64,000 nucleotides of DNA from positions 1-64,000 of the forward strand of contig JASEJE010000006.1 of assembly GCA_030024085.1 (NCBI GenBank), given 5' to 3'. The DNA is from Bacillota bacterium. GTDB taxonomy: Bacteria; Bacillota; SHA-98; UBA4971. Shown here in pieces: positions 4,456 through 63,137 of this stretch. The stretch's first letter is position 1, and every line of letters begins with the position of its first letter. Both the position numbers and the translations under genes were made by a program. The notes beneath the pieces were generated by a model, which worked only from the letters and a program-made list of their open reading frames with translations, did no database searches and was not told where the DNA came from.

Positions 4456-5513
4456 GCTTCACTCCCCCTCACGATCGCCACCAGGATGTCATCGAGGGAC
4501 ACCGGGAGCACCCGGGGCCTGGTTCCTGCGATACGTGCAATCCTTTCAGCAACATCCTCCGCAAACGCGTTCGTGATGCCAGTAAAGGTGACGCCGTCGA
4601 TACTGTACGCGGCAAACACCCTTTCCAGGCCGTCTCTCATCGCCTGCTCCACCCTGGCCCTGGCCTCGGCGATGCCCGCCTCGAGGCCGGCGGGGTCGGA
4701 CGGCGCGCCCGCCTCGCGCCGCACGGGGAGTGGGAACGAGATCCTCTTCCACCTGCCAAGCACGTCGTCTTTCACGTCGGACATCACGATCCGTCCGTCA
4801 TTGATGAACGTGACGTAGTCCGCGACCTTCTCCACGTCCTGGGTGATGTGGGTCGAGAAGAACACACTGCGCCGCTCGTCCTGGATGACCGACATCAGTT
4901 CTGCCAGGACGTCGTGGCGGATGACCGGGTCCAGCCCGCTCGTGGGCTCGTCGAGTATCAGGAGCTCCGGCCTGTGCGAGAGGGCGAGCGCCAGGCCCAG
5001 CTTCACCTTCATGCCCTTGGAGAGGGTCTTGACACGCTTCGACTGATCTATCCCGAATCTTCCGAGGGTTGCCTGGTAGAGCGGCGCGTCCCACGTCGGG
5101 TAGTACTTGCCCACGAACCCGCCAAGCCAGGCCGGGGTCACCTCACCGTAGAAGTGGGGTTCTTCCCCCAGGTAGCCAACGTGGCGCTTGACCTCGGTCT
5201 CGCAGGCCACGTGGTCGAGGCCCAGCACCTTCACGCTACCCGCGGACTTCCTTACCATGTTCATGATGATCTTGATGGTCGTGCTCTTGCCCGCCCCGTT
5301 CGGCCCGATGAACCCCATGATGTAGCCCCTCGGCAGCGTAAAGGACACATCCTTCAGCTGGAACCTCGGGTACCGCTTGCCCACACCTGACAGCATCAGT
5401 GCCGGGTCGCCGCGATCACCGGTGCCTTTCGCCTTTGACCCCGCTGCCGCGCTCGCGCTCGCGCTCGCGCTCGCGGTCGCCGTCGCCGTCGCCGCCATCG
5501 TTGCCATCGCCAT
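4449..5513 (-). CDS. ABC transporter ATP-binding protein
   Basis: ATPase of 354 residues. Walker A is GPNGAGKST (near residue 74), the signature LSKGMKVKLGLALALS, Walker B LLILDEPTSGLD, and the switch His is in STHITQD. About 30 residues at the N terminus are a repetitive Met/Ala/Thr/Ser tract encoded by GCGAGC-type repeats, absent from normal family members, so the real start may be internal or the tract a recent expansion. The ATG overlaps the GntR stop as TAATG, indicating coupling. With the permease at 3751-4455 it forms an exporter controlled by the upstream GntR gene. Confidence 0.9.
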   Translation of the reverse strand: MAMATMAATATATASASASASAAAGSKAKGTGDRGDPALMLSGVGKRYPRFQLKDVSFTLPRGYIMGFIGPNGAGKSTTIKIIMNMVRKSAGSVKVLGLDHVACETEVKRHVGYLGEEPHFYGEVTPAWLGGFVGKYYPTWDAPLYQATLGRFGIDQSKRVKTLSKGMKVKLGLALALSHRPELLILDEPTSGLDPVIRHDVLAELMSVIQDERRSVFFSTHITQDVEKVADYVTFINDGRIVMSDVKDDVLGRWKRISFPLPVRREAGAPSDPAGLEAGIAEARARVEQAMRDGLERVFAAYSIDGVTFTGITNAFAEDVAERIARIAGTRPRVLPVSLDDILVAIVRGSEAC

Positions 5514-20376: not shown

Positions 20377-20587
20377 CTAAGTATGGCGCCATAAGTTTGC
20401 GCCATCTTCCCTGACGGCGTCCGGGTTGCCGGTGCTTGCACGACGGGGCGTCGAGAATTTGGCTTGCCCGCGCGCCAAATTCGAACGAGGCGCGCCGCAA
20501 GCGCGCCGTCCCCGGAGGGCAACACCGGCAACCCTAGACAGGACTCACCCGCTGAAGAGTAGCGCGAACTTGTGACGATCTACCTAG
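20377..20587 (+). repeat. CTAAGT palindromic element, complete copy B
   Basis: A 211-bp imperfect palindrome running from CTAAGTATGGCGCCA to CTACCTAG. Core stem GGGTTGCCGGTG (20423-20434) pairs with CACCGGCAACCC (20523-20534). Inside are hairpins GAATTTGGC/GCCAAATTC (20455-20482) and GGCGCGC/GCGCGCC (20489-20507). It fills the gap between oppD and oppF and its right end coincides with the oppD TAG stop. Confidence 0.85.
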
Positions 20588-23826: not shown

Positions 23827-23856
23827 TCGTCTCGTCTCGTCTCGTCTCGTCTCGTA
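23827..23856. repeat. Pentanucleotide microsatellite (TCTCG)n beyond coaE
   Basis: Five to six direct copies of TCTCG/CGTCT just beyond the 3' end of coaE. The surrounding bases are degenerate copies of the same pentamer. Confidence 0.8.
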
Positions 23857-23884: not shown

Positions 23885-24487
23885 TCACGCCCGTCGTGGG
23901 CTCGCATCGAGCCGGTCCAGGATTAGTTCCACCTGCCGCGCGACAGCTTCGGGCGCGCCCGAGTTGTCCACGACGAAGTCGGCACGGCCGGCCTGCTCCT
24001 CGAGGCCTGCCTGCGCCTTTACGCGGTCGATGGCCTCCTCGCGCGAAAGGCCGTTTCGCGCCATGATCCTCTCGACCCGCGTGGTCTCGTCAGCCGTGAC
24101 GCAGATGACGCAGTCAACCAGCGCGTCGAGCCCGGCCTCGTACAGGACCGCGGCGTCCACCACGACAAGGGAATGGTCGCGGGCGGCTTCGCGCACGCGG
24201 TCCTGGGCGGCTTCGCGTAGCCGCGGAAACATGATGCCGTTCAGGCGCGCGAGAGCATCGGGGTTGCCGAACACGAGTCTCCCGAGAGATCTGCGGTCCA
24301 GGGCGCCGTCGTCGCGGAGAAAGCCGGCACCGAACTCGTCGATTATCGCCTCGAGCGCCGGCTCGCCGGGTTCCACGAGGTCGCGTGCCACCTGGTCCAC
24401 GTCTATAACGAAAGCCCCACGACGTGCGAGCTCCGATGCGACGAGGCTCTTGCCGCTTGCGATGCCGCCTGTCACGCCGATGACCAC
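23885..24487 (-). CDS. coaE: Dephospho-CoA kinase
   Basis: Kinase of 200 residues catalysing the last step of coenzyme A synthesis. P-loop GVTGGIASGKS at the N terminus, then FVIDVDQVARDLV (the D of the DxD substrate motif), and the CoA-binding segment LGRLVFGNPDALARLNGIMFP. Length and order match the family. Start GTG at 24487, eight bases after GGAGG. Pentanucleotide repeat tracts lie on both sides of this gene. Confidence 0.95.
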   Translation of the reverse strand: MVIGVTGGIASGKSLVASELARRGAFVIDVDQVARDLVEPGEPALEAIIDEFGAGFLRDDGALDRRSLGRLVFGNPDALARLNGIMFPRLREAAQDRVREAARDHSLVVVDAAVLYEAGLDALVDCVICVTADETTRVERIMARNGLSREEAIDRVKAQAGLEEQAGRADFVVDNSGAPEAVARQVELILDRLDASPRRA

Positions 24488-24645: not shown

Positions 24646-24762
24646 CGCCTCGCCCCTCGTCACCTCACTTCGCCTCAGCTCACCTCGACTCACCTCGCCA
24701 CGCCGCGCCACGCCGCACCACGCCACACCACGCCGCACCGCATCACATCACATCACACCATG
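24646..24762. repeat. Degenerate pentanucleotide tract upstream of coaE
   Basis: From about 24646 the sequence can be cut into 5-mers such as CCTCG, CCTCA, CCACG, CCGCA and TCACA for well over 100 bp with no phase slip that I can see. Nothing coding is apparent. The intergenic space 24488-24849 holds only this. Confidence 0.7.
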
Positions 24763-24849: not shown

Positions 24850-25890
24850 CTATCTGAGCCTCATGAGCCCCAGAAGAATGAGGATGCCGCCGGGCACCTT
24901 CTCGAGGTTCGGGGCGAGGACGCTCGTCTTCATTCTGCGCCCGACCACGATGCCCGTGCTCACAAACACGAACTGGGTGACTCCGGCGGTGAGCGGCGTG
25001 AGGGCACCCGAAAGCCCCGCCATCCCAGCCCCGAATCCCACACCGAGGGCATCCATGGCGAGGGCCAGCCCGAGAAGAAGTGCCTCACCTGCTGTGAGAA
25101 TGCCGGACGAGTCGAGGTCTGCGCGTGCAGGCTCGTCGAGGAGCCCCGGCACTATCGCAAGGGATCTCATGAGTCGCCCGAGCGGGCCGGGCCGAGAAGG
25201 CGCCCTGCGCGCGCAGCGGCTTCCGACCTCCTGCAGACATCGTGCCCCCGGGTCGCCCTTGGGGCGGCGCCCGATCCCTCCTTCAAGGGCCCGCATGTCT
25301 TCAGATGTACCATGGGTTCTCCGTTCCGCCTGACCGCAGGGTGTATGGGTGCGACCACTCAAGCCCACCGCGTCAGTAACGCCGTTGCCCGCGCCCTTGG
25401 GCCACCTGTCTGGAATTCTGTCTGGAATTCCGTCAACCCGGCAGGCTTCCCAGGGATGATGCGTGTCCCGCCTCCCTGATTCTGAGCCTGGCCCTGACCG
25501 CGACCCTGACCCTGCGCCTGCCCCTGTCGCATCCCCGGACGCGAGTCCTGGGCCTGCCACCCGGGCCCTCTCCTCTCGACCGCGCCAGAGCATCCAGCCC
25601 CCGAGCGCCATGAGGATGCCGCCACCTACCAGTCTCCCCACAAGAGGTGCCATAAGCCCCGCCAGCATCCGCCCGCTCCCGAGCGATAGAAAGACCACGA
25701 CCGCCGACACCACGTTCATCGCGAGAAGCGATCCGATGGGCACCCTTATGCCGCGTAAACCCTCGGCCACTCCCGCGGCAAACCCGTCGATGCTGACAGC
25801 AATCGCAAACAGGAGAACCCCGAGCACCTGCCAGTCGCCCCTTCCACCCGTGGCTATCGCCGCTTTCGCCATGGTCCCGGTTGTTACCAT
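24850..25890 (-). CDS. ytaF: Sporulation membrane protein YtaF-like, with large central insert
   Basis: MntP/YtaF-type protein of 346 residues. The N-terminal half has helices around FAIAVSIDGFAAGVAEGLRG and LLAMNVVSAVVVFLSL. The C-terminal half mirrors it with LLLGLALAMDALGVGFGAGM and ends ILILLGLMRLR. The paired Asp in SIDGFAAG and AMDALGVG is the family signature. Usual members are about 210 residues; here roughly residues 115-265 are a low-complexity hydrophilic insert rich in Gly, Ser, Arg and Pro encoded by near-repeats (CCTGACCGCGACC type). The role is inferred as a sporulation or cation-export-like membrane protein. Confidence 0.8.
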   Translation of the reverse strand: MVTTGTMAKAAIATGGRGDWQVLGVLLFAIAVSIDGFAAGVAEGLRGIRVPIGSLLAMNVVSAVVVFLSLGSGRMLAGLMAPLVGRLVGGGILMALGGWMLWRGREERARVAGPGLASGDATGAGAGSGSRSGPGSESGRRDTHHPWEACRVDGIPDRIPDRWPKGAGNGVTDAVGLSGRTHTPCGQAERRTHGTSEDMRALEGGIGRRPKGDPGARCLQEVGSRCARRAPSRPGPLGRLMRSLAIVPGLLDEPARADLDSSGILTAGEALLLGLALAMDALGVGFGAGMAGLSGALTPLTAGVTQFVFVSTGIVVGRRMKTSVLAPNLEKVPGGILILLGLMRLR

Positions 25891-26177: not shown

Positions 26178-28130
26178 CTAGAACGGGATCGTTATCTTCA
26201 GCTTGTAGTAGTCCGTGTCCGGAGACACTGCCGCGTTGCACAGCCACGACCACGGTCTATCCTCGTCGAAAGCATCAGTGCACGACGAGGACTGGAGAGC
26301 GCCCTTCCCGTAGCTGAGCACTATCGTGCTGTCGCCAAGCTTCACCGTATACGCGATGTCGAGCGTACCCTTCTTGGCCACGGTGGCGTCATACGTATAG
26401 CCGAGCGCGAGGGTGCTATTGGACGACACGGTGTAGGTGAACTTGTCGTGCACGAGGGTCCTGTAGTGGTCGACGCCCTGGTACTCCGTGCTCTTGCCGC
26501 CCATCACGGCTATCCTGTTGGAGAACAGGTCGTTCAGGGTCATGTTAGCCTCGGCGTAGCCGATGTACGTGGTCTGGGCATCAGCTGAGGACAGCCACAC
26601 GCCCCTTGCGAGGCCCGCCAGCAGCGTATCGACCTGCTTGATACCTGCGGGAACGAACGTCTGCTTGGCTTCGGCGTACACCTGGCCATCGAGCCTCGTG
26701 TGCTCGGCGCCGAGCTTGCCTGCCGGCACGATGTCGGTACCCGCCTCATCTTCCCAGACCTTAAAGCAGTACTCGCCTGCTTCATACTGGGCCTCGCCCT
26801 CGACGACCACGCCTGCCACCGGCTTCACTGTCGCGGAACCCTTGAGCTGGATGCCAGACCCTTCCTTGTCCGCAAGGTTGGCACCCATCCACTGCGCCTC
26901 GCCGGTCACGCTGAGGTTCTCGGCCGGATTGTACTCGACTTTGCCGGAGATGTTCTTCCGGTAGTCGTCATTCACAGGAGCATCCTTCGTCAGGAAGTCC
27001 TGGTACGAACCGCTGAGAGTCACCTTCACGGGCTCGGACGGGTTGAACTCGGCCTTTCCGTAGACCTTGTTGAAGGCAGTCGCATCCAGCTCCCCGTCAT
27101 ACGCCACGCGATAGTCGTCGCCCAGAGTGAGCTTGACGGCCTGGCCGCCAACGTTGACGTTGGTGACCGCTTCACCTTGCAGCTGACGCCTTCCGTCGTA
27201 GGTGCTGATATCGGTCGGAGCCCACGACGGACCAGGCGCGACTGCGTCGAAGTCTCCATCGACAGCCCGCAGGTTGCCGCTCAGGGTGAAGTTGCCAGCG
27301 GCGATACCAGCGACGTTGACCTCGTATGCGTTCGCCGGGGGTGCCCACACGCCGGCTGTCTGAACCTTGGACAGTGCGAGCGCCGCAGTGAACGTAGCAC
27401 CCTCAGAGATGGGAAGGGGACCGGTAACGTCGCCTTCAACGTTCACCGTTACAGAGTTGCCCGTATCCTCCTCCCGCGCCGCGTAGATGGCACCCACGGT
27501 ATGGCCGGAAGCGAGCCCGTAGGTCGCGCGTCCGAGAGCATACCTGGGGTAAGTCGCGTTGGCATCCGCAGTCGGCTCGGTCGCTATGAAGTAGCTGGTG
27601 AACCCGATCCCAAACGGCTGGCCAGCCGCCTTGAACGTGGCATAGCCGTAGTTATCGGTGTCGAGCCATTTCACAAGGCCGAGCGGATCGTTGAAGCTGG
27701 CGAAGAAGTACTCGCCATCGGTCGCATCCGTCAGGCTGAGAGCAAGCGGAGCGCCCTTGAAGACGAACAGATAGTTGTCGGCAGGGTTCTGCTGGACCTC
27801 GAGTACTCTGCCTGAAGCCACGACCTCGGCCTCACCGTCCGTGATGTCGAAGTAGCTCACGGGTCGAGTATAGAGGCGAAGCGGGATATGGGCCGACATC
27901 ACTTCGCCCTCCGCGAAGTCTATGTTCAAGTACAAAGTGGAGAAGTTGAGCAGGTCGACTCCCACATACTGCCCAACGCCTGCCGACGGGTTCTTCGAGT
28001 AGATGTACCCGCCGTCATACACAACCTCGCTCACGTACTTGCCGCTCACCTTGAGCGTCGCGCCCATGGCCGGGACGGACATGGCCGCCACCAGGAGAAC
28101 AGCGAGGACTATTCCCAGGCTTTTCCTCAT
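26178..28130 (-). CDS. Putative outer-membrane porin-like beta-barrel
   Basis: Secreted protein of 650 residues: signal peptide MRKSLGIVLAVLLVAAMSVP with cleavage near AMGA, then a long series of amphipathic strands (e.g. LKVSGKYVSEVVYDGGYIYS, VKVTLSGSYQDFL, GVVVEGEAQYEAGEYCFKV, STLALGYTYDATVAKKGTLDIAYTVKL) ending YYKLKITIPF with terminal Phe. No SLH domain is present, unlike OmpM. ATG at 28130 with AGGGGG upstream. It has its own strong promoter and a roughly 275-base structured leader, so it may be abundant and post-transcriptionally controlled. Barrel type and function are inferred from composition. Confidence 0.75.
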   Translation of the reverse strand: MRKSLGIVLAVLLVAAMSVPAMGATLKVSGKYVSEVVYDGGYIYSKNPSAGVGQYVGVDLLNFSTLYLNIDFAEGEVMSAHIPLRLYTRPVSYFDITDGEAEVVASGRVLEVQQNPADNYLFVFKGAPLALSLTDATDGEYFFASFNDPLGLVKWLDTDNYGYATFKAAGQPFGIGFTSYFIATEPTADANATYPRYALGRATYGLASGHTVGAIYAAREEDTGNSVTVNVEGDVTGPLPISEGATFTAALALSKVQTAGVWAPPANAYEVNVAGIAAGNFTLSGNLRAVDGDFDAVAPGPSWAPTDISTYDGRRQLQGEAVTNVNVGGQAVKLTLGDDYRVAYDGELDATAFNKVYGKAEFNPSEPVKVTLSGSYQDFLTKDAPVNDDYRKNISGKVEYNPAENLSVTGEAQWMGANLADKEGSGIQLKGSATVKPVAGVVVEGEAQYEAGEYCFKVWEDEAGTDIVPAGKLGAEHTRLDGQVYAEAKQTFVPAGIKQVDTLLAGLARGVWLSSADAQTTYIGYAEANMTLNDLFSNRIAVMGGKSTEYQGVDHYRTLVHDKFTYTVSSNSTLALGYTYDATVAKKGTLDIAYTVKLGDSTIVLSYGKGALQSSSCTDAFDEDRPWSWLCNAAVSPDTDYYKLKITIPF

Positions 28131-28516: not shown

Positions 28517-31414
28517 TTAGACATTTGCTGTGTGAATCCGGACAAGCTCCAGCCAGTTGGGACCTGACTTGACGTCCACCTTCAGTGGAACGTCAAGGAT
28601 CACAGCCTCCTCCATCGTCTTTCGCGCCAGCGCAGCCATGTCGTAAAGTTCGCCCTCCGGCACCTCAAACACAAGCTCGTCGTGGACCTGAAGGATCATC
28701 TTGCTCGCAAGGCCGCGCCTTTCGATCTCGCGGTGCACGTTCACCATGGCAAGCTTTATGATGTCCGCCGCGGTGCCCTGGATGGGCGTGTTCATGGCCA
28801 TCCTCTCGGCGAATTTCCTCGCAGGCACATTCTTGCTGTCAAGGTCCGGCAGGTAGCGGCGCCTGTTCAGGAGGGTCGTAACGTAGCCGTCGCGCCGCGC
28901 CGCCTCCACCACCTCGTCCAGGTATCTCTTCACTCCGCGGTAGTGCCGGAAGTACGCCTCGATGAACTTGCCCGCCTCTTTCCTGGAGATCCCCACGCCT
29001 TTCGCCAGGCCGAAGTCGCTGATACCATAGACTATGCCGAAGTTTACGGCCTTGGCCCTGGTCCTCATCTCCGGGGTCACGTCCCGGATGTCCACCCCGA
29101 AGACAGACGCGGCCGTGCGGGCGTGGATGTCCTCATCGCGACGGAACGACTCCACGAGCGCCTCATCGCGCGAGAAGTGCGCCAGCACGCGGAGCTCGAT
29201 CTGGGAGTAGTCGGCGCTCACTATAAGACTATGCGCCTTGCCCGGAACGAACACCGCGCGGATGCGGCGCCCCTCCTCCTTTCTGATGGGTATGTTCTGA
29301 AGGTTTGGGTCGCTGCTCGAAAGCCTGCCTGTCGCCGTCACGGTCTGGTTGAACGTCGTGTGGATGCGCCCTGTACCAGGGTTTATCAAGGACGCCAGCG
29401 CGTCGGCGTAAGTCCCTTTCAGCTTGGCTATCTCACGATACTCCACGATCTTCGCGGCGATGCGGTGGTGCGAGGAAAGCTCCTCGAGCACCTCGGCGTC
29501 GGTCGAATACCCGGTCTTCGTCTTCTTGACAGCCGGCAGGCCCAGCTTCTCGAATAGCACATGGCCAAGCTGCCTTGGGGAGTTGATGTTGAATTCCTCG
29601 CCGGCGAGCTGATATATCTCCTGCTCGAGTTCGGCCATGCGCCCGGCCATGTCGCGAGAGAGCCGGCCGAGGCTCTCCGGGTCCACCGCTACGCCCGCCA
29701 TCTCCATGTCCGCGAGGACCGCCACGAGCGGCATCTCCACGGAACAGAAGAGCTTGTGCATCCCGAAGTCCACGAGCTTCCTCGTAAGCATCTCGCGAAG
29801 ACGCGGAAGCAGAACGAGACCTTGGCAGACTGCGTCGCGCACCACGTTGGCCTGCACCTCGGCGATGGACCTCGGAAGCCCGCCGCGCCCCGCTCGCGAG
29901 AAGAGCGCGTCTACCGACGGCACGTCCTCTGCGAGCTGGTCGCGGATCACGTGCTCCAGGTCGCTCCTGCGCTCGGGGTTGACGAGGTAGGCGCCGATCA
30001 TCGTGTCGAAGTACAGGCCGGCAAGCCCAACGCCTCGCCTGCGAAGGTGGATCATCTTGGGCTTCGCGTCGTGGCATGCTTTCGAAACACCGTTATCCTC
30101 GAAGACTGGCTTGAGGATCTCGAGAACCGCCCTCTCCTCAAGGCCGGGCGCCCCGAGATAAGAGTGGACGAAGGGCAGGTAGAACGCCCTGCCGTCAGGG
30201 AGGGCGAACGCCATGCCGACGAGGCCCGCGCGCATCGAGTCGGGGCCGTCGGCGACCACGTCAAACGTAAAATCCTTCGCGGCGGCGAGGTCGCGCGCAA
30301 GCGCCCGGACGCCTTCGAGGTCGGCCACGGTCACGCACCGGCCCCCGTGCGCTGCTACCCCAACTCCAACAGCGGCCGCGGCGGCCGGACGCTCCCCGGC
30401 CCCCTCGCAGGCCGCGCCCTCTCCCGTCTTGCCCGCCTCGCCCGGTCGCACCTCCCCCTCGCCGAACAGGCTCCCCATGGACGGCGCGCCCGGTCTGCCA
30501 GGCCGCGCTTCCGCTCCCGCCTCGGCACCCGCCCCGCGAGGGATCTTCGACTCGAAGCGTCTCAGCAGGCTGCGGAATTCAAGACGCCTGAATAAGGCCG
30601 CCAGCTTCGCGTAATCGGGCTCCTCCAGCCGGCACCGCTCCAGATCGAACTCGATGGGGACGTTTCGCTCTATCGTGGACAGCCTCTTCGAAAGCTCGGC
30701 CTGCTCCGCATGCTGGCGGATGAGCTCGCGGGCCCGCGCAGGCTCGACCCTGTCGATCTCACGAAGGATCTCCTCGACGCCACCGATGGTCTGGATGAGC
30801 TTGGCGGCGGTCTTCTCACCGATGCCGGGCACACCGGGGATGTTGTCGGAGGTATCACCCGCGAGGCCCTTGAGGTCAGGCACCTGGCCTGGAGCGATGC
30901 CGAACCGCTCCTTCACCGCTTCCTCGTCGAACGTCTCAATCTCGCTGATGCCCTTCTTCGTTATCATGGCGCGGGTGAGCGGCGACACGAGCTGGAGCGT
31001 GTCCCGGTCCCCCGTCACGATGACGGACTCGTAGCCCGCCTCCTCGGCCTTCTTCGTCACCGTCCCGATGACGTCGTCAGCCTCGTAGCCATCGATCTCC
31101 AGGACCGGGACGCGAAAGGCCTCCACGAGTTCCTTGATGAGAGGCATCTGGGACGCAAGCTCGTCGGGCATGCCCTTCCGGTTGGCCTTGTATCCGTCGA
31201 ACTCTAGATGTCTGAAAGTGGGCGCCGCCTTGTCGAAAGCGACGGCGAGAAAGTCAGGCTTTTCCTCGTCAACGAGGCGGAGCAGCATGTTGGCGAAGCC
31301 GTATACGGCGTTCGTGCGCTCGCCGCTCTTCGTGCTGAGATCGGCCTGGATGGCGTAGAATGCGCGGTTCGCGAGGCTGTTACCGTCTATGACGATGAGC
31401 TTCTTCCGTGCCAT
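28517..31414 (-). CDS. polA: DNA polymerase I
   Basis: Protein of 965 residues. The N-terminal 5' nuclease domain shows VIDGNSLANRAFYA and YEADDVIGT. The middle 3'-5' exonuclease-like domain has lost its DxE pair (FTFDVVADGPDSM), so proofreading should be absent, as in Bacillus and Thermus enzymes. Polymerase motif A is SADYSQIELRVLAHFS, motif B RAKAVNFGIVYGISDFG, motif C MILQVHDELVFEVP. A low-complexity Ala/Gly/Glu insert (about residues 290-360) separates nuclease and exonuclease-like domains. Start ATG at 31414 (MARKK), seven bases after a G-run; an ATG two codons earlier is possible. Confidence 0.97.
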   Translation of the reverse strand: MARKKLIVIDGNSLANRAFYAIQADLSTKSGERTNAVYGFANMLLRLVDEEKPDFLAVAFDKAAPTFRHLEFDGYKANRKGMPDELASQMPLIKELVEAFRVPVLEIDGYEADDVIGTVTKKAEEAGYESVIVTGDRDTLQLVSPLTRAMITKKGISEIETFDEEAVKERFGIAPGQVPDLKGLAGDTSDNIPGVPGIGEKTAAKLIQTIGGVEEILREIDRVEPARARELIRQHAEQAELSKRLSTIERNVPIEFDLERCRLEEPDYAKLAALFRRLEFRSLLRRFESKIPRGAGAEAGAEARPGRPGAPSMGSLFGEGEVRPGEAGKTGEGAACEGAGERPAAAAAVGVGVAAHGGRCVTVADLEGVRALARDLAAAKDFTFDVVADGPDSMRAGLVGMAFALPDGRAFYLPFVHSYLGAPGLEERAVLEILKPVFEDNGVSKACHDAKPKMIHLRRRGVGLAGLYFDTMIGAYLVNPERRSDLEHVIRDQLAEDVPSVDALFSRAGRGGLPRSIAEVQANVVRDAVCQGLVLLPRLREMLTRKLVDFGMHKLFCSVEMPLVAVLADMEMAGVAVDPESLGRLSRDMAGRMAELEQEIYQLAGEEFNINSPRQLGHVLFEKLGLPAVKKTKTGYSTDAEVLEELSSHHRIAAKIVEYREIAKLKGTYADALASLINPGTGRIHTTFNQTVTATGRLSSSDPNLQNIPIRKEEGRRIRAVFVPGKAHSLIVSADYSQIELRVLAHFSRDEALVESFRRDEDIHARTAASVFGVDIRDVTPEMRTRAKAVNFGIVYGISDFGLAKGVGISRKEAGKFIEAYFRHYRGVKRYLDEVVEAARRDGYVTTLLNRRRYLPDLDSKNVPARKFAERMAMNTPIQGTAADIIKLAMVNVHREIERRGLASKMILQVHDELVFEVPEGELYDMAALARKTMEEAVILDVPLKVDVKSGPNWLELVRIHTANV

Positions 31415-32197: not shown

Positions 32198-32544
32198 CTA
32201 AGTGAGGGTGCGGGAATCTTCCCGACTTTGAGACGGGTTGCCAGTGCTTGCACAAGGGGTGTCGAAATCCGGCTATTCGGCCGACTGGCCCTACTTGCCC
32301 TACGGGCCCGACGCGCCCGTAGGGCAAGACCTTGGCGAAGCGCTCCCCGTCTGGGGCGCCGTCCCCGAGTGCGACACCGGCAACCCGACACTCGCTGGAA
32401 AACGGGGAGGAATCGACGAACAAGGCCGTTGATCCCCCCAGTAGCTGCCAGTTCAGGCGTGCACGGCGACCGGTTTCGGGCGTTCCACCGAGCTGCGCTG
32501 CCATAAACGGGAGAAAATCAACAGTCTCGCGGACCCCCACTTAG
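32198..32544 (-). repeat. CTAAGT palindromic element, variant copy E
   Basis: A 347-bp element with ends CTAAGTGAGGGTGCG and, inverted, CTAAGTGGGGGTCCG. It keeps the core stem GGGTTGCCAGTG/CACCGGCAACCC of copy B and contains a perfect 13-bp-arm hairpin TTGCCCTACGGGC/GCCCGTAGGGCAA (32295-32327). Its right end overlaps the TAA stop of the SLH gene. Confidence 0.8.
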
Positions 32545-34093: not shown

Positions 34094-35497
34094 CTAAAAT
34101 CCAGGCGCGTGGCCTGCAATTCGCGACCTCTGGCGCACCACCTGCCCGAAAAGTGGCCGGCCCGCCGATGTTGGTGCTGGTGCTGGCGCTGGTGCTGGCG
34201 CTGGCACTGGTGGTAGTGCTGGTGCCGGGGTTGGCGCCTGCTCGAGCGGTGTCGGCGCTGGTACCACGCCCTCCTCTTTCGGGGGCATGACCGGGCGCGT
34301 CGAAATCATGAGCATGAGGGTCTGCGGGTCCCACGTGACGAGCACCGTGGCAAAGAGCCGTCGCAGGTCGTCGAGGCTCACATAAGCCCTCCCGGATGCG
34401 ACGACGCCGCGCACCGGCACCCCGCCGACGATAGCCAGGCGCTGCACCTGGTCCCAGTGAACGTAGCACCCCAGGGCCTCGGCTATGGGCCGCAGGGCCA
34501 CCAGCACGTTCCGTGCAGCATCGATCCGCGCCGCGCCCGCGAGGAGCGGGCGACCGTCCACCTCGACACGCGGCACCCATGGCACGGGCTCTGGCTTGCC
34601 GCTGGCGGTCGCGACGATTGCTTTGAGAGCATCTTCGTCCAGGTCGGGCGCTGGCTGCGGCAGGCTCGCCGCAAGCACCGCCACAGCGGCTTCAAAGGTG
34701 TTGGCGCCACGTCCATAGATGTCCCTGTGCACCGTGATATGCGCGCCGATGAACCCGGGCCGCACCTCCCCCGGCTCGATTTCGATGGTCCGGTAGACGA
34801 ACTCCACCTGCGTTCCGACGGGCACGATGTCATAGAGTTCCCTCGCGTCCTCGTCGCGCATCCGGATGCAACCCAGGCTCACCGCCTTGCCGATGGACGC
34901 CGGGTTGTTGGTTCCGTGGATCCCGTACCCGGGCCAGCTCAGGCCCATCCACCGTGATCCGACAGGGTTGTCGGGCCCTGGCGGTACCGCCGGACGGCCG
35001 TCGGGCGGGAACCATGTCGGGTTCTTCGCCTTATGAACAATAGTACACGTCCCGATGCGGCTCGGCGAAACGGCTTTCCCTACGGCTATAGGGTACTCTT
35101 TCACCAGCTCATCGCCGCGGAAGAGGGACAGCCGGTACGCCGGGATGTTGATCACTATCCTGTACACTCCCTGGTACGTTCCCTGTCGACTGGGCACACC
35201 GCTCGTCCCAGTGGCCTGAGTCTGACCTGCGCCTGCGGCCTCAGCGTTGCCGTTGCCACCCTCGCGGCCGTCGCGGCCGTAGCCGTGCTCGTGCTCGTTC
35301 CCCTGCCCGTAGCCGTGGTCGTCGCCCCCGGCCTGCTCGGGCGCAGGATCCAGGACCTCAGCCGTGATGGAGGAGTCCCCACCCCCCTCTGCCGGGGCCG
35401 AGGCCCACGCCCCGGGACGTCCAGCTTCCCCAAAGAACACAAGAAGCGCGATGCCGAGCGCCACACATAGCCACAACGCCCGTGTTTTCCGACGCAC
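34094..35497 (-). CDS. Secreted L,D-transpeptidase with copper-amine-oxidase-like stalk domain
   Basis: Protein of 467 residues beginning at GTG 35497, nine bases after GGAGGG. Signal peptide ALWLCVALGIALLVFFGEA, an Asp/Gly/His-rich spacer, then a YkuD domain (RIVINIPAYRLSLFRGDELV to the catalytic site GIHGTNNPASIGKAVSLGCI, with His and Cys). After a linker comes a CuAO N1-type stalk domain (LVALRPIAEALGCYVHWDQ, YVSLDDLRRLF) and a Pro/Ala-rich tail. It makes or edits 3-3 peptide cross-links, or attaches proteins to peptidoglycan. Low-complexity Ala-Pro repeats at the C terminus match the compositional drift seen elsewhere here. Confidence 0.9.
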   Translation of the reverse strand: MRRKTRALWLCVALGIALLVFFGEAGRPGAWASAPAEGGGDSSITAEVLDPAPEQAGGDDHGYGQGNEHEHGYGRDGREGGNGNAEAAGAGQTQATGTSGVPSRQGTYQGVYRIVINIPAYRLSLFRGDELVKEYPIAVGKAVSPSRIGTCTIVHKAKNPTWFPPDGRPAVPPGPDNPVGSRWMGLSWPGYGIHGTNNPASIGKAVSLGCIRMRDEDARELYDIVPVGTQVEFVYRTIEIEPGEVRPGFIGAHITVHRDIYGRGANTFEAAVAVLAASLPQPAPDLDEDALKAIVATASGKPEPVPWVPRVEVDGRPLLAGAARIDAARNVLVALRPIAEALGCYVHWDQVQRLAIVGGVPVRGVVASGRAYVSLDDLRRLFATVLVTWDPQTLMLMISTRPVMPPKEEGVVPAPTPLEQAPTPAPALPPVPAPAPAPAPAPTSAGRPLFGQVVRQRSRIAGHAPGF

Positions 35498-45973: not shown

Positions 45974-46098
45974 CTCTGTGAGGGTGAAGAAATGCTTCCG
46001 ACTTTCGGAGGGGCTGCCGGTGACGCTAAGAGAGAGTGCAGCACCGGCAACCCAGCGACTGATGGTGAGTCGGCAAGAACCGACGGACCCTCACTTAG
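45974..46098 (-). repeat. CTAAGT palindromic element, short copy G
   Basis: A 125-bp copy; on the minus strand it starts CTAAGTGAGGGTCCG and keeps the core stem GGGTTGCCGGTG/CACCGGCAGCCCC with a much reduced interior. The start CTAAGTG contains the TAA stop of hsp20. Confidence 0.8.
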
Positions 46099-51266: not shown

Positions 51267-54200
51267 GTGCTGCCGTTGACAGAGATGATCCTGACCAAGC
51301 TGATGCCGCCGCGGGCCATGCCCGGCCTGGTATGGCGTCCCAGGCTCATCGAGGTGCTCTCGAACATCGAAGGCCGAAAGCTGACGGTCGTGGCGGCTCC
51401 GGCCGGGTACGGAAAGACAGTGCTCATGTTGCAGCTTGCAGGCGCGTTGGGATGCCCGCTCGTCTGGTACCAGCTCGATCCATCAGACAACGACCCGGCA
51501 GCTTTCATCCAGTATCTGGTCACCGGAGTCCAGAGGCACTTCCCGGACGTCGGCCGCGAGGTGCTCGGCCTTCTCGAGCAAGGCGGCGTCGCGTCGAGAC
51601 AACGCCTGATCGTGGCAGCGCTCGTGAACGGCCTCGCTGAAGCAGTGTCCGGCGCCGGCCTCCTCGTGGTTTTCGACGACTACCATGCCGTCACCGACCC
51701 TTCAGTCCATTCTCTCGTTCAGGATTTCGTGCAGCGCGTTCCGGCAGGAGTGCACGTCATCATCGCGAGCCGCGCGAGGCCCCCGCTGGCGTTATCGCGC
51801 ATGCTTATCACCGGCGAGGCCATCATGATCGGCGTGGACGATCTCAAGTTCACCAGGCCGGAGATCGGGGCATTTCTGGGCCGCAGCTCCAAGGAGGGAG
51901 ATGACGACCGATTCCTGGAGGCAATCGAACGCTGGACCGCCGGGTGGGCTGCGGCGCTGCGCCTCGCGAGGGAGGCCGGGCCCATACCCCTGGACCGCGG
52001 CGGGATGGCGCCACCCTCGGGAACCGGAACGACGACTGAAACGGGGGCTGAACCCAGGACTGAAACAAGGACTGAAACGAGGACCGAGACCAGGGCACTC
52101 TTTGCATACATGGCTTCCGAGGTGCTCGAACAGCAACCCGAGGATGTGCGCGAGTTCCTGGTGTCCACGTCGGTTCTCGACGTCCTCACGTCGGAGATGT
52201 GCGACCTGCTCCTCGGCCGGTGCGATTCCCGCCGGATTCTGGATTTCCTGGAGAGCCGGGAGCTATTCATCATTCCCCTGGCCGGGCGCGGCAGAGCATA
52301 TCGTTACCACGATCTCTTCCGGAACTTCCTCCAGAACCGCCTGGGCCCGGCGCGGGGCGAGCTTCTTCGCCGGGCGGGGATCATCGCCGAACAGACGGGG
52401 GAGTTCGAGCGGGCCGTGGACTATTTCCTTGCAGCGGGATCAGATGCAGACGCGCTGCGGGCCATCAAGGAGGCAGGAAAGGAAGCGCTGCGGTGCGGGC
52501 GCTGGCAGACATGCAGGCGCTGGCTCGAGCGCCTGACGTCCGAGGAGTTGTCGGGCGAGCCGTGGCTCGCCCTGTATCGAGCGGAGATCGAGGCTTACAG
52601 CGGGCGCCTCGACGAGGCCGACGCGTGGGTGAAGACGGCATCCGCGGGATTCGCTGCAAGGGGCGAGGACACGGGCCTTGCCGAAAGCCGGGTGCTCCAG
52701 GCGAGGCTCCTGCGCTGCCATGGTCGGTACATCGAGAGCATGGCCGTGCTGGACCAGGCCTATCCCAAGCTGGCGGCAGCCGCCGCGGCCGGAAGGCGGT
52801 TCGACCTCCCCATGGAGAGATCGCTGAACCTCGTCATGACTGGGCAGCTCGAGGAAGCGGAGGCTCTGCTTCGCAGCGCGCTGGAAGCAGCATGGAGGGG
52901 AGACGACCGCCTCATCGCATGTCGCCTCGCCGAGGGTCTCGGCAACGTTCTGTACATACGGTGCAAATACCGGGAAGCTTTGAAGATGTTCAGGAGGGCC
53001 GCGGAGCTATCGAACGAGTCGCTGCTGCCCGGCTATTACATGCAGGACAGCGCCTGCTGCATCTACTCCGACTGGGGCGAACTCGACCGCGCCCTCGGTC
53101 TCGCCAGGCGCGCCGCGGAGACGAGAGAGGCCCTTGGCCTGGTGGAGGCGCTCCCTTCCGCGTACAACTACCTGGCATGCATCTACATCGAGCTCGGCAG
53201 GTTCGAGCTTGCTGAGGAATACCATCGACGCGCAATCGAGGCCGGCGGGGAGCATTTCTTCCGCACCCTGAATCGCGCCTACCTCGCCCGGTGCATCGGG
53301 CTCCAGGGCCGGTGGTCGGAGGCTGCTGCCATGGCTGAGGAGATACTCGGAGAGGTCCATGGCCAGCAGATCCTGTGCGGCATCTGCCAGGTAGTCAGCG
53401 CGCCGGTCTTCATTCACACCGGTGGCATCAGGAGAGCCGAGACCCTCCTCCAGGAGGCAGTATCAGGACTGGAGCCAGCCGGCAAGAGCCCCCCGTTGTG
53501 CAATGCGTACGGCTTCCTCGGAGGCGTCCTCCTCGCCCAGGGACGAAATGCGGAAGCGCGGCGGTACGTGGAATTGTACATGAACCTTGCCGCCAGGATG
53601 AACTACCTGCAAAGCCTGCTCATGACCTCCCCCGACCTGTACCTCTTGCTCCTCGGGGAAGCCATCAAGCTCGGGATCGAGGTGCCTTTCGCCCAGCGGG
53701 TGCTCGTACGCCTCGGCCCGCGTTCCATCGGACTCCTTGCTGATCTCGCGAGCCACGACGAGCCAGAGCTGCGCGCGCGGGCGGTCACGCCCCTTGCCGA
53801 AATCGGCGGGCCCCGCGCCGAGGAGATCCTCAGATCGCTCGCAGGTGATACTGCACACCCCGAGGTAAAACAGCTTGCCCTGGCGGCCGTGAGGAGGCGC
53901 TGCGGCGAGTCGTCCGGCGCGTCCGCAGCGGCTCGCCATGGCGCCCCTGCGGACCGGGCCGTCCTCAGCACTCTGCCCGCTACCAGCGCCGCGTCAACAG
54001 CCAGGGCGGGCTCTATCGACGCCACTGCGGGGACAGACACCCCGCTTCACCTGCTCATGCTTGGCCCGTTCCGCGTTATCCGGGATGGCGTGGAGGTTAC
54101 TGCCTCACGCTGGCGCACGACGAAAGCCCGCGACCTCCTGGCCTACCTCGCCCACCGCGCAGGGCCGGTCACAGCCGACAGGATCATCGAGGATCTCTGG

Positions 54201-54797
54201 CCGACCAGCCCCCGTGACAGGGCCGCGACCTCGCTCCACAGCACGCTCTACCGCCTGAGGCGCGCTCTGGACCAGGGACCAGTGCCCCGAGGTGAACTCA
54301 TCCTCCGCGGGGGGAGGCGCTACCAACTGCATTCCGGGGGCTTTTCCACCGACAGGCAACGCTTCGAGGACCTCGCAGCCGCATGCCTGGGCGATCAGGG
54401 CGAAACATCCGAGGAGATCGTGGCCGGCCTCGATGAGATGGTTGCGCTCTATCGCGGCGACTACCTGGAGGACCTGGATTACACGTGGGTGGCGGCGGAT
54501 CAGGAGCGCCTGAGGAGGCTATGCACGGACGCAAGGGTGCGGCTCGGCCGCCATTACCTGAGTCAGCGGGACTGGTCCAAAGCCATAAGGCACCTGGAGG
54601 CCGCGGCCGACTCGAACCCGCTCTCCGAGGAGATATGCTGCCTGCTGATGCGCGCCCATGCGGGCGCGGGAGACCAGCTCGCGGTGCTGAAGTGCTATGC
54701 GACCCTCCAGGCGACGATGGCCGAGGAGCTCGGCCTCGCCCCCTCGCCAGGCGCCAGGGCGCTCGTGTACGAGCTTTGCGGAGGCGAGCCCACGTGA
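51267..54797 (+). CDS. MalT/LuxR-like STAND ATPase regulator with C-terminal BTAD (SARP-type)
   Basis: Regulator of 1176 residues. MalT-like N terminus (LTKLMPPRAMPGLVWRPRL) and P-loop AAPAGYGKT; Walker B LLVVFDDYHAV; a middle of TPR-like helical repeats (ALEAAWRGDDRLIACRLAEG); a short HEAT-like patch (LAEIGGPRAEEILRSL). The C terminus is an OmpR-like DNA-binding domain plus BTAD (PFRVIRDGVEVTASRWRTTK, then ATSLHSTLYRLRRAL, EEICCLLMRAHAGAGDQLAV). Thr/Glu/Arg repeats near residue 260 come from a hexanucleotide expansion. The start is unclear: GTG 51267 or ATG 51285. The divergent VWA gene is a candidate target. Confidence 0.88.
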   Translation: MLPLTEMILTKLMPPRAMPGLVWRPRLIEVLSNIEGRKLTVVAAPAGYGKTVLMLQLAGALGCPLVWYQLDPSDNDPAAFIQYLVTGVQRHFPDVGREVLGLLEQGGVASRQRLIVAALVNGLAEAVSGAGLLVVFDDYHAVTDPSVHSLVQDFVQRVPAGVHVIIASRARPPLALSRMLITGEAIMIGVDDLKFTRPEIGAFLGRSSKEGDDDRFLEAIERWTAGWAAALRLAREAGPIPLDRGGMAPPSGTGTTTETGAEPRTETRTETRTETRALFAYMASEVLEQQPEDVREFLVSTSVLDVLTSEMCDLLLGRCDSRRILDFLESRELFIIPLAGRGRAYRYHDLFRNFLQNRLGPARGELLRRAGIIAEQTGEFERAVDYFLAAGSDADALRAIKEAGKEALRCGRWQTCRRWLERLTSEELSGEPWLALYRAEIEAYSGRLDEADAWVKTASAGFAARGEDTGLAESRVLQARLLRCHGRYIESMAVLDQAYPKLAAAAAAGRRFDLPMERSLNLVMTGQLEEAEALLRSALEAAWRGDDRLIACRLAEGLGNVLYIRCKYREALKMFRRAAELSNESLLPGYYMQDSACCIYSDWGELDRALGLARRAAETREALGLVEALPSAYNYLACIYIELGRFELAEEYHRRAIEAGGEHFFRTLNRAYLARCIGLQGRWSEAAAMAEEILGEVHGQQILCGICQVVSAPVFIHTGGIRRAETLLQEAVSGLEPAGKSPPLCNAYGFLGGVLLAQGRNAEARRYVELYMNLAARMNYLQSLLMTSPDLYLLLLGEAIKLGIEVPFAQRVLVRLGPRSIGLLADLASHDEPELRARAVTPLAEIGGPRAEEILRSLAGDTAHPEVKQLALAAVRRRCGESSGASAAARHGAPADRAVLSTLPATSAASTARAGSIDATAGTDTPLHLLMLGPFRVIRDGVEVTASRWRTTKARDLLAYLAHRAGPVTADRIIEDLWPTSPRDRAATSLHSTLYRLRRALDQGPVPRGELILRGGRRYQLHSGGFSTDRQRFEDLAAACLGDQGETSEEIVAGLDEMVALYRGDYLEDLDYTWVAADQERLRRLCTDARVRLGRHYLSQRDWSKAIRHLEAAADSNPLSEEICCLLMRAHAGAGDQLAVLKCYATLQATMAEELGLAPSPGARALVYELCGGEPT

Positions 54798-58326: not shown

Positions 58327-58992
58327 CTACCTCTGCCTCTCCTTCACAAGCCTCGTGGGTTTGCCGAGCGCCCTCACGCTTTCTGTCACCCGCTTCACCA
58401 CGTCGGCAAACTTCTCACCCTCCGCGGCGGAAACCCACGAGAAATGGACGCGGCCCTTCTCGATCCCGAAGAAATCGAGGAGGTCGGCGAGGAGCGCGAA
58501 TTTCCGCCTGGCAAGGTAGTTGCCGGCTATGTAGTGACAGTCGCCGGGATGGCACCCGGAGACGAGCACGCCGTCGGCACCTCGCTGCAGGCACTTCAGG
58601 ATAAGGAGCGGGTCCACCCGGCCCGAGCAGGGCACCCGGATCACGCGCACGTTCGGCGGGTACTGGATGCGGCTCGTCCCTGCGAGGTCAGCGCCGGCAT
58701 ACGAGCACCAGTTGCATAGAAATGCCACGATCTTCGGCTCCCAGGCGCCGCCCGCCCGGTCGGCCATGACCTCAACCGCTGCTTTAGCGGGAGCGCAGGC
58801 ATCGGGCCGAGCGGCGGCACCGCCGGTCCCGACGCAGGGCCCCGCGGCACCCGCGCCGGTCTCCTCGGCCTCGGCTGCGGGCCCACCGTGCGGTCCCGCC
58901 ATGCACTGGCACGGGTTCAGTCGGTCGGGATGCTCCGGATGTTCCATGACGTGCCCGGCGGACTGCCACGTGGAATGTTCAGCCTTCAGCAC
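58327..58992 (-). CDS. mvhD: MvhD-type hydrogenase iron-sulfur subunit with N-terminal linker
   Basis: Protein of 221 residues. The MvhD domain has FLCNWCSYAGADLAGTSR, VRVIRVPCSGRVDP, GADGVLVSGCHPGDCHYIAG and FSWVSAAEGEKFADVV, with the Cys set for a 2Fe-2S cluster. I start at GTG 58992, ten bases after GGAGG and overlapping the hdrA stop. The roughly 85 residues before the domain are low complexity (Ala/Gly/Pro/Glu) and unlike family members. It links Flx subunits to HdrA. Confidence 0.85.
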   Translation of the reverse strand: MLKAEHSTWQSAGHVMEHPEHPDRLNPCQCMAGPHGGPAAEAEETGAGAAGPCVGTGGAAARPDACAPAKAAVEVMADRAGGAWEPKIVAFLCNWCSYAGADLAGTSRIQYPPNVRVIRVPCSGRVDPLLILKCLQRGADGVLVSGCHPGDCHYIAGNYLARRKFALLADLLDFFGIEKGRVHFSWVSAAEGEKFADVVKRVTESVRALGKPTRLVKERQR

Positions 58993-61900
58993 AGGGCGCT
59001 CACCTCCGCCAGGATCTCCTCCTCCGTGAACCCTTTGAGCGTGAGGGCACCGCACCGGCATGTGGCGGCGCACAGGCCGCAACCCTTGCACAGCGCGGAG
59101 TTCACCTTCGCCACGTTATCCTTGGGGTCGATGTCGAGCGCCTTGTACTGGCACGCCTCGACGCACAGCCCGCAGCCTGTGCACCTCGTCTTCATTACCT
59201 CGGACTTTATGCCCTCGGTGGCGATGGTCCCGCTCGCCAGCACAGTGCACGCCCTCGCCACCGCCGCGTGGGCCTGGGCGATGGTCTCGTCGATGGTCTT
59301 CGGGGCGTGCGCAAGCCCGGCGAGGAACACTCCCTCAGTGGCGAAGTCCACGGGGCGCAGCTTCATGTGGGCCTCCAGGAAGAACCCGGACTCATCCAGC
59401 GGCACCTTGAGCATCTGAGCGACCTTCTTGTTGCCCTCGTTCGGCGCGATCCCGGCGCTGAGCACCACGATGTCGGCAGGGATGGCGAGCCGTTCGTCGA
59501 GGAGCGTATCGGTCACTTCGACCACGAGCCATCCGCTTCCACCGTCGCCATCGTCGCTGCTGGTGCAGGCACTGTAAGCATCGGCGCAGCCGGCTCCGCG
59601 TCTTGCCCCCGCGCCATCGTCGCTCCGCGACACCACAGGCATCTGCCCCTCGGGATACCTCACGAACACGACGCCCCGGCGCCTGGCTTCCTCGAAGTAG
59701 GCCTCCCTCGCGCCGTAGGTACGGATGTCCCGGTAAAGGATGTATACGTCGGCGTCGGGGTCCGCCTCCTTCAGGCGGATGGCGTTCTTCACAGCCTCGC
59801 TGCAGCATACGCGGCTGCAGTAGTCGTGCTCATCATCGCGCGACCCGACGCACTGGATCATCACCACGGACCGGCCCCGCCGTAGGCCCGGGCCCAGGCC
59901 GCCCCGTGCTTCCGTCGCCTTCCCCTTCCCCTGCCCCCGCCTCTGCTCCTGCTCCTGCTCCTGCCCGGGCCAGACCCCGGATGCCAGACGCGCCTCCAGC
60001 TCGGACTGGGTCATCACGCCCGGATGCTCGCCGTACAGGAAGCCCGAAGGCCGGAACTCCGACGCACCCGTCGCCACGATGACCACGCCGTGCTCGAACT
60101 CCACCTCGCAGATGGCCCCGGCCTCGCCGTTTCCCCGGCTCCGGTCGAGGACGCGCGATCGGAAGTTCCCGAGGTAACCTGCGATCTCCTTCACCTCTGA
60201 TGACGTGTGCACCTCGATGAGGGGGTTCGACATAACCCGGCTCACAAGCTCCCGCAGGTATGCCTGGACGTCGTCGCCGCCCAGGGTGAAATGGATCTTG
60301 CGCAGATGCCCGCCAAGCTCCGGCCCGGCCTCCACCAGGTACGCCTGGAATCCCTGCTCTGCAAGGTCCAGCGCCGCAATCATGCCGGCAAGCCCGCCGC
60401 CGATGACAAGGCCCGATCTCTTCACCTCGATGGGCAGCCGCTCCAGCGGTTCCAATAGCGCCGCCTTGGCCACAGCCGCGCGCACCAGATCGTTCGCCTT
60501 CTCCGTGGCCTTCTCCGGCTCATACATGTGCACCCACGAGCACTGGTCGCGGATGTTCGCCATCGCGAAGAGGTAATGGTTCAGCCCGGCTTCGCGGATG
60601 GTCTCCTGGAAGAGCGGCTCGTGTGTGCGCGGCGTGCACGACGCCACCACGACCCTCGTGAGCCCGTGCTCCTCGATTTTCTCCTGGATGCGTTTCTGGG
60701 TGTCCTGTGAGCAGGTATAGAGGTTGCGCTCGGCATAGACCACGTTCGGGAGGGTCTTCGCGTACTCCACCACCGCAGGGACGTCGACGACCCCGCCGAT
60801 GTTGATGCCGCAGTGGCAGATGAACACGCCTACCCGCGGCCCGACGCCGCGAAGATCCTTCTCCGGCGGGTAGGTCTTTTCGCGGATGAGCGTCCCGCGA
60901 GCGCTCCCGAGGAGCGCCCCCGCCGCCCCCGCGGCGCCGCTCGCCTGCGTCACGGTTTCGGGGATGTCCTTCGGGCCCTGCATGGCGCCGCAAACGAAAA
61001 CCCCCGGCCGCGTCGTGGCGAGCGGGTCGAGCGTGCCCGTCCTCGCGAAACCGTTCTCGTCAAGCTGTATCCCAAGCACGTCCGCAAACCGCCCCGCGTC
61101 CTCAGGAGGCTCGAGCCCCACGGACAGCACCACGAGGTCGAACTCCTCCTTCACGACGCCGCCGTCCTCGGACTCGAACGACACGATGAGGTTGTGGGTC
61201 GCGGGCACCTCGGCGACCTCCGCCACCCGGGTGCGCACGTACCTCACGCCGTATTCCTGCTTCGCCCTCTCCACGTAGGCGTCGAAGCCCTTGCCGTAAG
61301 ACCGCATATCCATGTAGAAGATGGTCGGCTGGACACCCGGCGCGTGCTCCTTGGCGATCACGGCCTCTTTCGTTGCGTACATGCAGCATACCGACGAGCA
61401 GTAGCGCCCGCCATGCGCCCGGTCGCGCGAGCCGACGCACTGTATGAAGGCTATCTTCTGAGGGATGTCGCCGTCGGACGGGCGCAGCACGCGCCCCTCA
61501 TAAGGTCCTGACGCGCTCAGGATCCTCTCGAACTCCATGCTGGTGACAACGTTCGGGTACCTGCCGTAGCCGTACTCCCGGCGAACCGACGGGTCGAACG
61601 CCCGAAACCCCGGAGCGAGCACGACCGCGCCCACGGAGAGCTTTCGTTCGCGGGGCGTGTCGTCGTAGCGGATTGCGCCTGCAAGGCACATGTTCTCGCA
61701 CAGGCCACACCCCACGCACGTGTCGCGGTCTATGACGTAAGCAAGCGGCACCGCCTGCGGGTAGTCTATATAGATGGACGGCCGCTTGCCGAGGCCCGCG
61801 TTGAACGTATCCCGCGCCGCCCCCACCGGGCAGTGTTGCGCGCACACGCCGCACCCGGTGCACTTTTCAGGGTCCACGTAGCGTGGCCTGTTCACCACGG

Positions 61901-62297: not shown

Positions 62298-63137
62298 TTA
62301 CGCCCGCGCGCCGGCCCGCACGTACCTGGGTGAGCGGCCCGAAACATCGTAAAGCTCTATGAGCCCGCGCCGTTTGAGGTACGCGGCCTGCTCCAGGACA
62401 AGCTGCGCCGAGATGCCGAGGCGCGATGCGATGTCCCTTACGGAAACCGGCGCCTCTCCGGCCAGCACCTCTATGGCTGCGCGCACGCACTCGTCGGCGA
62501 TGACGCTCTGCATGAGGGCGGCCGCCTTGTGCGGCGAAACCTTCTCACCGTAGACGTTGCCCTCCTCGCTAAGAGCCTTGTTCCGCCCCACAAGCCACCT
62601 GAATCTCTCGCCCCCCGCCACGCGCCTTGCCACCTCGGCCCGAAACGCGAACTCACCGCGCGAGAGGCCCTCCCTCGACGCAGGCCCGCCGCCCGCAGGC
62701 CCCAGGGTGCGCACCCGCGCCACGAACTCCGATACCATGTCAGCGAACCTCGCGCCCTCTGCCGCGGAAACCCAGTCGAGATACAGCCGCTCCCGGTCTA
62801 TCCCGAGGTGGTCAAGGACCATCCAGATCGTGCGCACCCGCTGTTCCGCCTGGTAGTTGCCACTCAGGTAATGGCAGTCCCCGGGGTGGCACCCGAGCAC
62901 CATAACGGCGTCGGCGCCATGCAGGAACGGCTCTATCATGGTCTCCGGGTCCACGCGCCCCGAACACATTACGCGAATGACGCGGAGGTTCGTCGGGTAG
63001 GCCAGCCTGGACGTGCCCGCGAGGTCGGCTCCCGCGTACGAGCACCAGTTGCACAGGAACCCGACCACCTCCGGCTCGAACCCTTCTCCGTCTCGCCCCT
63101 CCACGGTCGCGCGCCCTTCCACCGCGAGATCCGCCAT
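62298..63137 (-). CDS. MvhD fused to a C-terminal winged-helix domain
   Basis: Protein of 279 residues. Residues 22-150 are an MvhD domain (FLCNWCSYAGADLAGTSR, VMCSGRVDPETM, GCHPGDCHYLSGNY, LDWVSAAEGARFADMV). After a spacer, residues about 215-275 read VSVRDIASRLGISAQLVLEQ then AAYLKRRGLIELYDVSGRSP, a winged-helix DNA-binding fold typical of transcription factors. ATG sits one base after the upstream hdrA stop, nine bases from GGAGG. A redox-linked role in gene control is a tempting inference; the helix could alternatively be structural. Confidence 0.85.
   Translation of the reverse strand: MADLAVEGRATVEGRDGEGFEPEVVGFLCNWCSYAGADLAGTSRLAYPTNLRVIRVMCSGRVDPETMIEPFLHGADAVMVLGCHPGDCHYLSGNYQAEQRVRTIWMVLDHLGIDRERLYLDWVSAAEGARFADMVSEFVARVRTLGPAGGGPASREGLSRGEFAFRAEVARRVAGGERFRWLVGRNKALSEEGNVYGEKVSPHKAAALMQSVIADECVRAAIEVLAGEAPVSVRDIASRLGISAQLVLEQAAYLKRRGLIELYDVSGRSPRYVRAGARA

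Follow-up and report, generated by a model that had tools for sequence, protein, structure and literature searches.

Low complexity in the proteins of prokaryotes, slippage, and MITEs are all well-established topics (PMC6821194, PMC8004648, PMC11285758, PMC10969869, PMC12695832). In excerpts from this work, DNA slippage is named as a source of low complexity, with neutral interdomain linkers as the early view of such regions (PMC6821194), and alanine-rich low-complexity regions are described as the most variable between strains (PMC8004648). The excerpts of two papers also stress conserved roles of such regions (PMC6821194, PMC12695832). Among short repeated elements, the cited part of one study gives the Correia element a length of 204 bp, ERIC up to 711 copies in Photorhabdus, and the Rickettsia palindromic elements a length of approximately 150 bp, with 44 integrations in Rickettsia genes (PMC10969869). 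Among the matches listed by our literature queries, which did not name the genus studied here, there was nothing on it, and this is weak evidence.

The DNA analyzed here (the window) covers the first 64 kb of contig 62 in an assembly, which we call G000, of 3.11 Mb and 65 contigs. An earlier note on the window described low-complexity inserts within conserved proteins as a trend of the genome. All of the segments that it named are present, but its account of their DNA and of their low complexity was partly wrong. We think it likely that these inserts are disordered linkers and leaders that were lengthened by tolerated, in-frame, small tandem duplications.

Genomes and counting rules

G000 was compared with five genomes of the same genus (G001–G005), seven of a neighboring genus in the same family (G006–G012), and two of a sister genus of the class (G013 and G015, GC 57%). 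Open reading frames (ORFs) were called from the first start codon past a stop, so leader lengths can be overlong. Low complexity was scored by 12-residue entropy, as the fraction of a segment covered. Length changes were counted with strict anchors, leaving out any reciprocal-best ORF with more than 30% overlap with a better one, as well as ortholog pairs below 55% identity. Samples from Bacilli, Syntrophomonas, and the neighboring genus held only 5–18 genes per pair.

Inserts in conserved proteins

The segments under study are as follows.

5397..5513, minus strand: ABC ATPase leader, residues 1–39, a GCGCTC-type six-base repeat on the plus strand
25177..25581, minus strand: YtaF linker, residues 104–238 of ORF 24850–25890, lying by alignment between the protein's two halves
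30341..30556, minus strand: PolA linker, residues 289–360, between the 5' nuclease and Klenow-like parts
52002..52094, plus strand: Thr-Glu-Arg repeat of a MalT-like regulator, residues 246–276, with a 12-base array at 52028–52084
58744..58992, minus strand: MvhD (FlpD) leader, 83 residues counted from the GTG overlapping with the HdrA stop
59529..59630, minus strand: HdrA insert 2, residues 860–893, variable in length over 10 genomes
59871..59972, minus strand: HdrA insert 1, residues 746–779, variable in length over 10 genomes

The inserts claimed for PolA (near residues 290–360), HdrA (two), the N terminus of the ABC ATPase, and MalT were all found in place, with low-complexity scores of 0.69, 0.85 and 0.85, 0.82, and 0.90, respectively. 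Elsewhere in the same proteins the score was 0.00–0.15. The MvhD leader exists, at 83 rather than the 85 residues first given, and approximately half of it is of low complexity (0.45). The YtaF insert, in which G, R, A, P, and S abound, departs from this description, as it scored 0.19 against 0.15 in the remainder of the protein. The statement that the DNA in each insert consists of short GC-rich repeats was too strong. Tandem Repeats Finder returned 22 rows in the window, and these reached three of the six named genes, in the ABC ATPase leader, MalT, and YtaF (2.4 copies); no row in the window fell in PolA, HdrA, or the MvhD leader.

Several other repeats were seen in the window. Five-base and related GC-rich arrays (TCGTC; CCACGCCGCA) at 23827–23855 and 24660–24751 lie outside conserved genes and flank a dephospho-CoA kinase-like ORF (23885–24487). 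A six-base array at 34172–34237 encodes a Pro/Ala-rich tail in ORF 34094–35497. Two 291-bp tandem copies that are 97% alike occupy 48914–49487 inside ORF 48413–50995; they mark an in-frame duplication, of recent date, of 97 residues.

ORF 24850–25890 matches Pfam as a two-part Mntp protein. YtaF matches were found in 44 of the 61 genomes searched; a scan that used only the window protein as query did not confirm any relative. The linker does separate two conserved halves, as had been reported, but it measures 135 residues rather than approximately 150. Its length is 128 in both G003 and G004, 125 in G001, 71 in G002, and 27 in G005. Across 29 of 30 loci (L028, with a cut frame, was left out), the spacing of fixed motifs was largest in five of the six genus genomes (160–224); it was 115 in the sixth and 91–146 in the 23 remaining loci. 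GC content was rejected as a predictor of linker length in the loci measured, with a rho of 0.27 (p 0.16, n = 29), or -0.17 (p 0.42, n = 24) when one genome of the genus was retained. An AlphaFold model of modest quality (mean pLDDT 60.6, pTM 0.43) placed residues 123–146 and 148–230 below a pLDDT of 50, and the linker is accordingly predicted to be disordered; this prediction covers YtaF alone among the named proteins.

Between G003 and G004, the closest pair, dN/dS was 0.72 in the YtaF linker and 0.23 in the core, with similar dS. The PolA values were 0.55 in the linker and 0.07 in the core, again with similar dS. By its substitution pattern, the YtaF linker is coding and weakly constrained. 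Because dN/dS in both linkers is below 1, some constraint on them is possible. In ten protein-level pairs of YtaF linkers, from which the 27-residue linker of G005 was excluded, clear likeness was limited to G003–G004; the next best shuffle frequency was 0.016, and the remainder were at least 0.05. We regard it as very unlikely that selection maintains the linkers as functional domains specific to the lineage. The dN/dS values and the four of six YtaF linkers that measure 125–135 residues favor such domains, but most species pairs have no similarity above chance (0.016 being the best of the nine other pairs), the G005 linker has just 27 residues, and predicted order is low. The length of the YtaF linker could itself matter, since those four linkers are close in length despite being mutually dissimilar, except in G003–G004.

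The PolA linker is flanked by Pfam and PDB matches, and Klenow chains align from residue 362. In 13 genomes, the segment between fixed residues spans 85–111 residues in the six of the genus, 52–63 in four of the neighboring genus, and 64–89 in three of the class. PolA motif spacing had no significant link with GC in the 10 of 23 genomes where spacing could be read. In HdrA, the first and second segments span 82–125 and 42–73 residues in the genus and 77–89 and 51–85 outside it, so that G011 exceeds every genus genome in the second.

The MvhD leader begins at a GTGCTGA overlap with GGAGGTGA upstream. Its lengths in the six genus genomes are 83, 73, 74, 74, 70, and 39, and the frame is open in all six; the leader is real. 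Shorter leaders occur in G007, G013, and G015, where paralog assignment is ambiguous. A second MvhD (62298–63137) has a C-terminal stretch that resembles MarR_2, at 26.4 bits just below the 27-bit family cut-off. In the ABC ATPase, the start codon shares bases with the stop codon of the preceding gene, the leader holds a tandem array at 5448–5486, and G001, G003, and G004 have Ala/Thr-rich leaders. The MalT-like regulator (51267–54797) has no close ortholog in the sister species, where partial matches of approximately 30% occur in G001–G003, and it has 45–55% identical orthologs in three neighboring-genus genomes; this distribution suggests loss or transfer. In neighboring-genus relatives, the loop carries a different repeat at the same place.

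The proposal that inserts are tolerated in loops agrees with the comparison of sister species that had been suggested as a check. Linker lengths differ among the sisters in YtaF, PolA, HdrA, and MvhD, and identical inserts of the same length were not seen. Length variation was also observed in other genes. The product of 26178–28130, putatively porin-like, shows several internal length changes and 72–75% identity to the sisters, where PolA has 86–88%. Outside the window, the MutL frame (G000:C11 140162–141766) spans 612–725 codons in the six genus genomes and 561–613 in six neighboring-genus genomes (the seventh being a fragment). Its middle is unmatched in many of them and is probably another lengthened linker.

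Small tandem duplications

Small indels were compared in the closest pair, G003 and G004, over 186 kb at 93.5% identity. Among indels of at least 6 nt, 19 of 33 in coding DNA copy an adjacent unit where 1.5 are expected, as do 8 of 15 in non-coding DNA where 0.1 are expected. Among indels of at least 3 nt, multiples of three make up 39 of 49 in coding and 10 of 25 in non-coding DNA (Fisher p 0.0014). Repeat arrays in G000 show a similar bias, with a period divisible by three in 31 of 43 arrays within conserved genes versus 13 of 41 elsewhere (p 0.0004), and they are denser outside conserved genes (41 in 79 kb) than inside (43 in 195 kb). Copying indels inside and outside genes, together with the bias toward multiples of three in coding indels and genic arrays, support a process of small duplication that would act genome-wide and be filtered by selection. 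A further 34 indels of one or two bases were counted as coding in this pair, which suggests that the MAGs contain errors of assembly or that some ORFs are wrong.

The tandem signature is weaker in more distant pairs. It marks 12 of 18 clean in-frame indels in G003–G004 and 4 of 18 in G015–G013, and between G000 and G002, G003, and G004 it marks 0 of 4, 4 of 11, and 5 of 13, respectively. The earlier suggestion of repeat expansion holds for the small indels of the closest pair, which are mostly tandem copies, but none of the four clean indels longer than 30 nt matched its neighbor. We infer that the long inserts of the present day, that of YtaF above all, grew by many small steps.

These observations can be brought together in a single scheme. 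The inserts would occupy sites where the fold accepts extra chain (between the halves of YtaF, between the enzyme parts of PolA, and in loops of HdrA) or where extra chain is tolerated at the start of the protein (MvhD and the ABC ATPase). Replication slippage, or some comparable local error in copying, would duplicate and delete short tandem units throughout the genome. Among the events within genes, those that persist would be the in-frame ones in such linkers. Later substitutions would blur the repeats, and in this way the linker sequence would be replaced within the genus with the frame kept open. The linkers would presumably do nothing beyond spacing.

Length change across genomes

Length change of this kind was seen beyond the window, as the idea of a genome trend had anticipated, but it is not peculiar to G000. 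Internal length changes of at least 8 residues numbered 15, in 13 of 132 orthologs, between G000 and G005, and 33, in 21 of 146 orthologs, between G000 and G001; a looser earlier count had given 27 and 44. Nine within-genus pairs gave 1.7–7.9 changes per 10,000 aligned residues. The rate was 13.9 in the sister genus (G013–G015, 34 genes), 7.8–14.8 in the neighboring genus (GC 44–51%; tiny samples of 5–9 genes per pair), and 2.1–10.7 in six pairs of Azospirillum (GC 68–71%). No event was found in ten pairs from Siminovitchia, Lederbergia, and Syntrophomonas (GC 37–46%), each represented by one neighborhood of at most approximately 20 kb. Three non-overlapping low-GC pairs cover 13,170 residues, in which 6.6 events would be expected at 5 per 10,000, and the probability of finding none is 0.0014. 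Set against the genus rate, the rates in Azospirillum and in the relatives indicate that the trend in linker length is real, common to other high-GC bacteria and to moderate-GC relatives, and not special to G000.

Such figures could also reflect unusually high linker growth in the class, owing to a lineage-specific trait of replication or repair. The sister- and neighboring-genus rates, next to zero in the ten low-GC pairs, lean that way. However, the Azospirillum rates overlap, and the tandem-array density of G000 (16.5 and 12.6 per 100 kb) lies within the span of 0–22 in genomes sampled outside the genus. Loss of mismatch repair was rejected, as all 25 genomes had MutS above cut-off and 24 of them had MutL above it as well, with a fragment in the remaining one. 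We consider a class-wide trait of this type quite unlikely; turnover of tolerated disordered linkers is the ordinary explanation. In such genomes, the length of a gene or the presence of a low-complexity insert says little about function, and homology is poorly judged from how long a linker is.

An interspersed inverted-repeat element

Two inserts found only in G003 turned out to be copies of an interspersed inverted-repeat element. Its 199-bp consensus has the ends CTAAGTGAGGG...CCCTCACTTAG, and its predicted fold (-123 kcal/mol) is much more stable than those of shuffled sequences (z -9.6). Copies in the window, and one in G003, are as follows.

20377..20587, plus strand: copy, profile hit, with a CTAG empty site in G004
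32198..32421, plus strand: copy, profile hit (E 3.8e-39)
45977..46098, plus strand: shortened copy, two profile hits joined (E 9.4e-6 and 4.9e-6)
G003:C1 33873–34017: copy in G003

Merging of hits that overlapped on the two strands reduced the count in the DNA read from 154 to 128 distinct copies. By genome, with the length of DNA read in parentheses, these were 36 in G000 (274 kb), 47 in G003 (370 kb), 23 in G004 (202 kb), 17 in G001 (300 kb), 2 in G002 (99 kb), and 3 in G015 (302 kb); the profile found no copy in 390 kb of G005. By extrapolation, G000, G003, and G004, three of the six genus genomes, would each carry 365–432 copies. A whole-genome search, in which approximately 13 candidates were scored per genome and counts are therefore lower bounds, found relatives in at least 14 of 61 genomes. 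These include all six of the genus, at least five of the seven of the neighboring genus, and G013 and G015, with one weak hit outside them in G019 (E 8e-4).

The termini are CTA...TAG in 43 of 70 copies with both ends, and 22 of 70 testable copies have an empty site in another genome. Of these 22 sites, five are CTAG, several are one base off, and others are ambiguous. IS630 prefers CTAG. The CTAG-like empty sites match the expectation for TA duplication. A search for an autonomous partner with DDE_3 (PF13358) gave weak, short matches in three of six genus genomes and none in G000, G003, and G005. In G003, one pair of element ends lies 2,980 bp apart. A known RNA family was rejected for the element, as its three hits were all far below gathering scores; the RNA family search of the window gave tRNA only.

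The element bears on the inserts in that mobile copies could land in frame and be translated, as Rickettsia palindromic elements are. One case is clear: a copy sits in frame in the middle of an HdrA-like protein (an HdrA paralog) of G003 and adds 46 residues, with flanks approximately 90% identical to the proteins of G000 and G004 that are without it. Two further candidates are less certain, a 35-residue insert in another G003 gene whose start is unsure and whose surroundings are repetitive, and a 65-bp element fragment in a 1165-codon frame whose homolog is approximately 40% identical. However, the element profile matched none of the six named inserts of the window, and most G000 copies (23 of 36) lie outside conserved ORFs. 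Nine others overlap such ORFs partly and four by more than 90%; of these four, two start where the called ORF starts, one falls within an ORF of 93 codons, and one precedes the likely start. As a general origin of the inserts, mobile copies therefore seem unlikely to us, and in-frame insertion would be a rarer second source. For the YtaF insert in particular, a repeated mobile element was rejected: the insert has no further copy in the genome, where the six other matches are of 19–34 bases (E 0.1–0.7), and it does not match the element profile. Blurred copies could be hidden in long inserts that no longer align, such as the YtaF linker.

A broader possibility joins the two processes, with linker turnover in the class fed both by genome-wide tandem duplication and by an old, high-copy, folded, and occasionally translated element shared by several genera. 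We hold this to be rather unlikely. Apart from its bearing on the linkers, the inverted-repeat family provides a new means of studying how plastic the genomes of this uncultured lineage are.

Comparison with known systems

The inserts most resemble the slippage-variable, low-complexity or disordered linkers of bacteria, with which they share in-frame repeat units, fast change among relatives, and tolerance of change in linkers. The YtaF insert differs in not being of low complexity, and the conserved roles stressed in the excerpts of PMC6821194 and PMC12695832 have no apparent counterpart in the inserts described here. For the inverted-repeat element, the closest described systems are MITEs of the IS630/Tc1-mariner type. 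It differs from these in its strong nested fold, in the absence of an autonomous partner from the DDE_3 search, and in a consensus that matched nothing in plasmids and an exact 18-base core that matched nothing in viral contigs. It is like them in its length of approximately 200 bp, its terminal inverted repeats, its TA-like target duplication, and its hundreds of copies, mostly outside genes. With the Rickettsia palindromic elements it shares a short palindromic repeat inserted in frame in a conserved gene, although coding insertion is rare here (one clear and two uncertain cases among 128 distinct copies). The inverted-repeat family is more unusual than the linkers, yet it is of a known kind.
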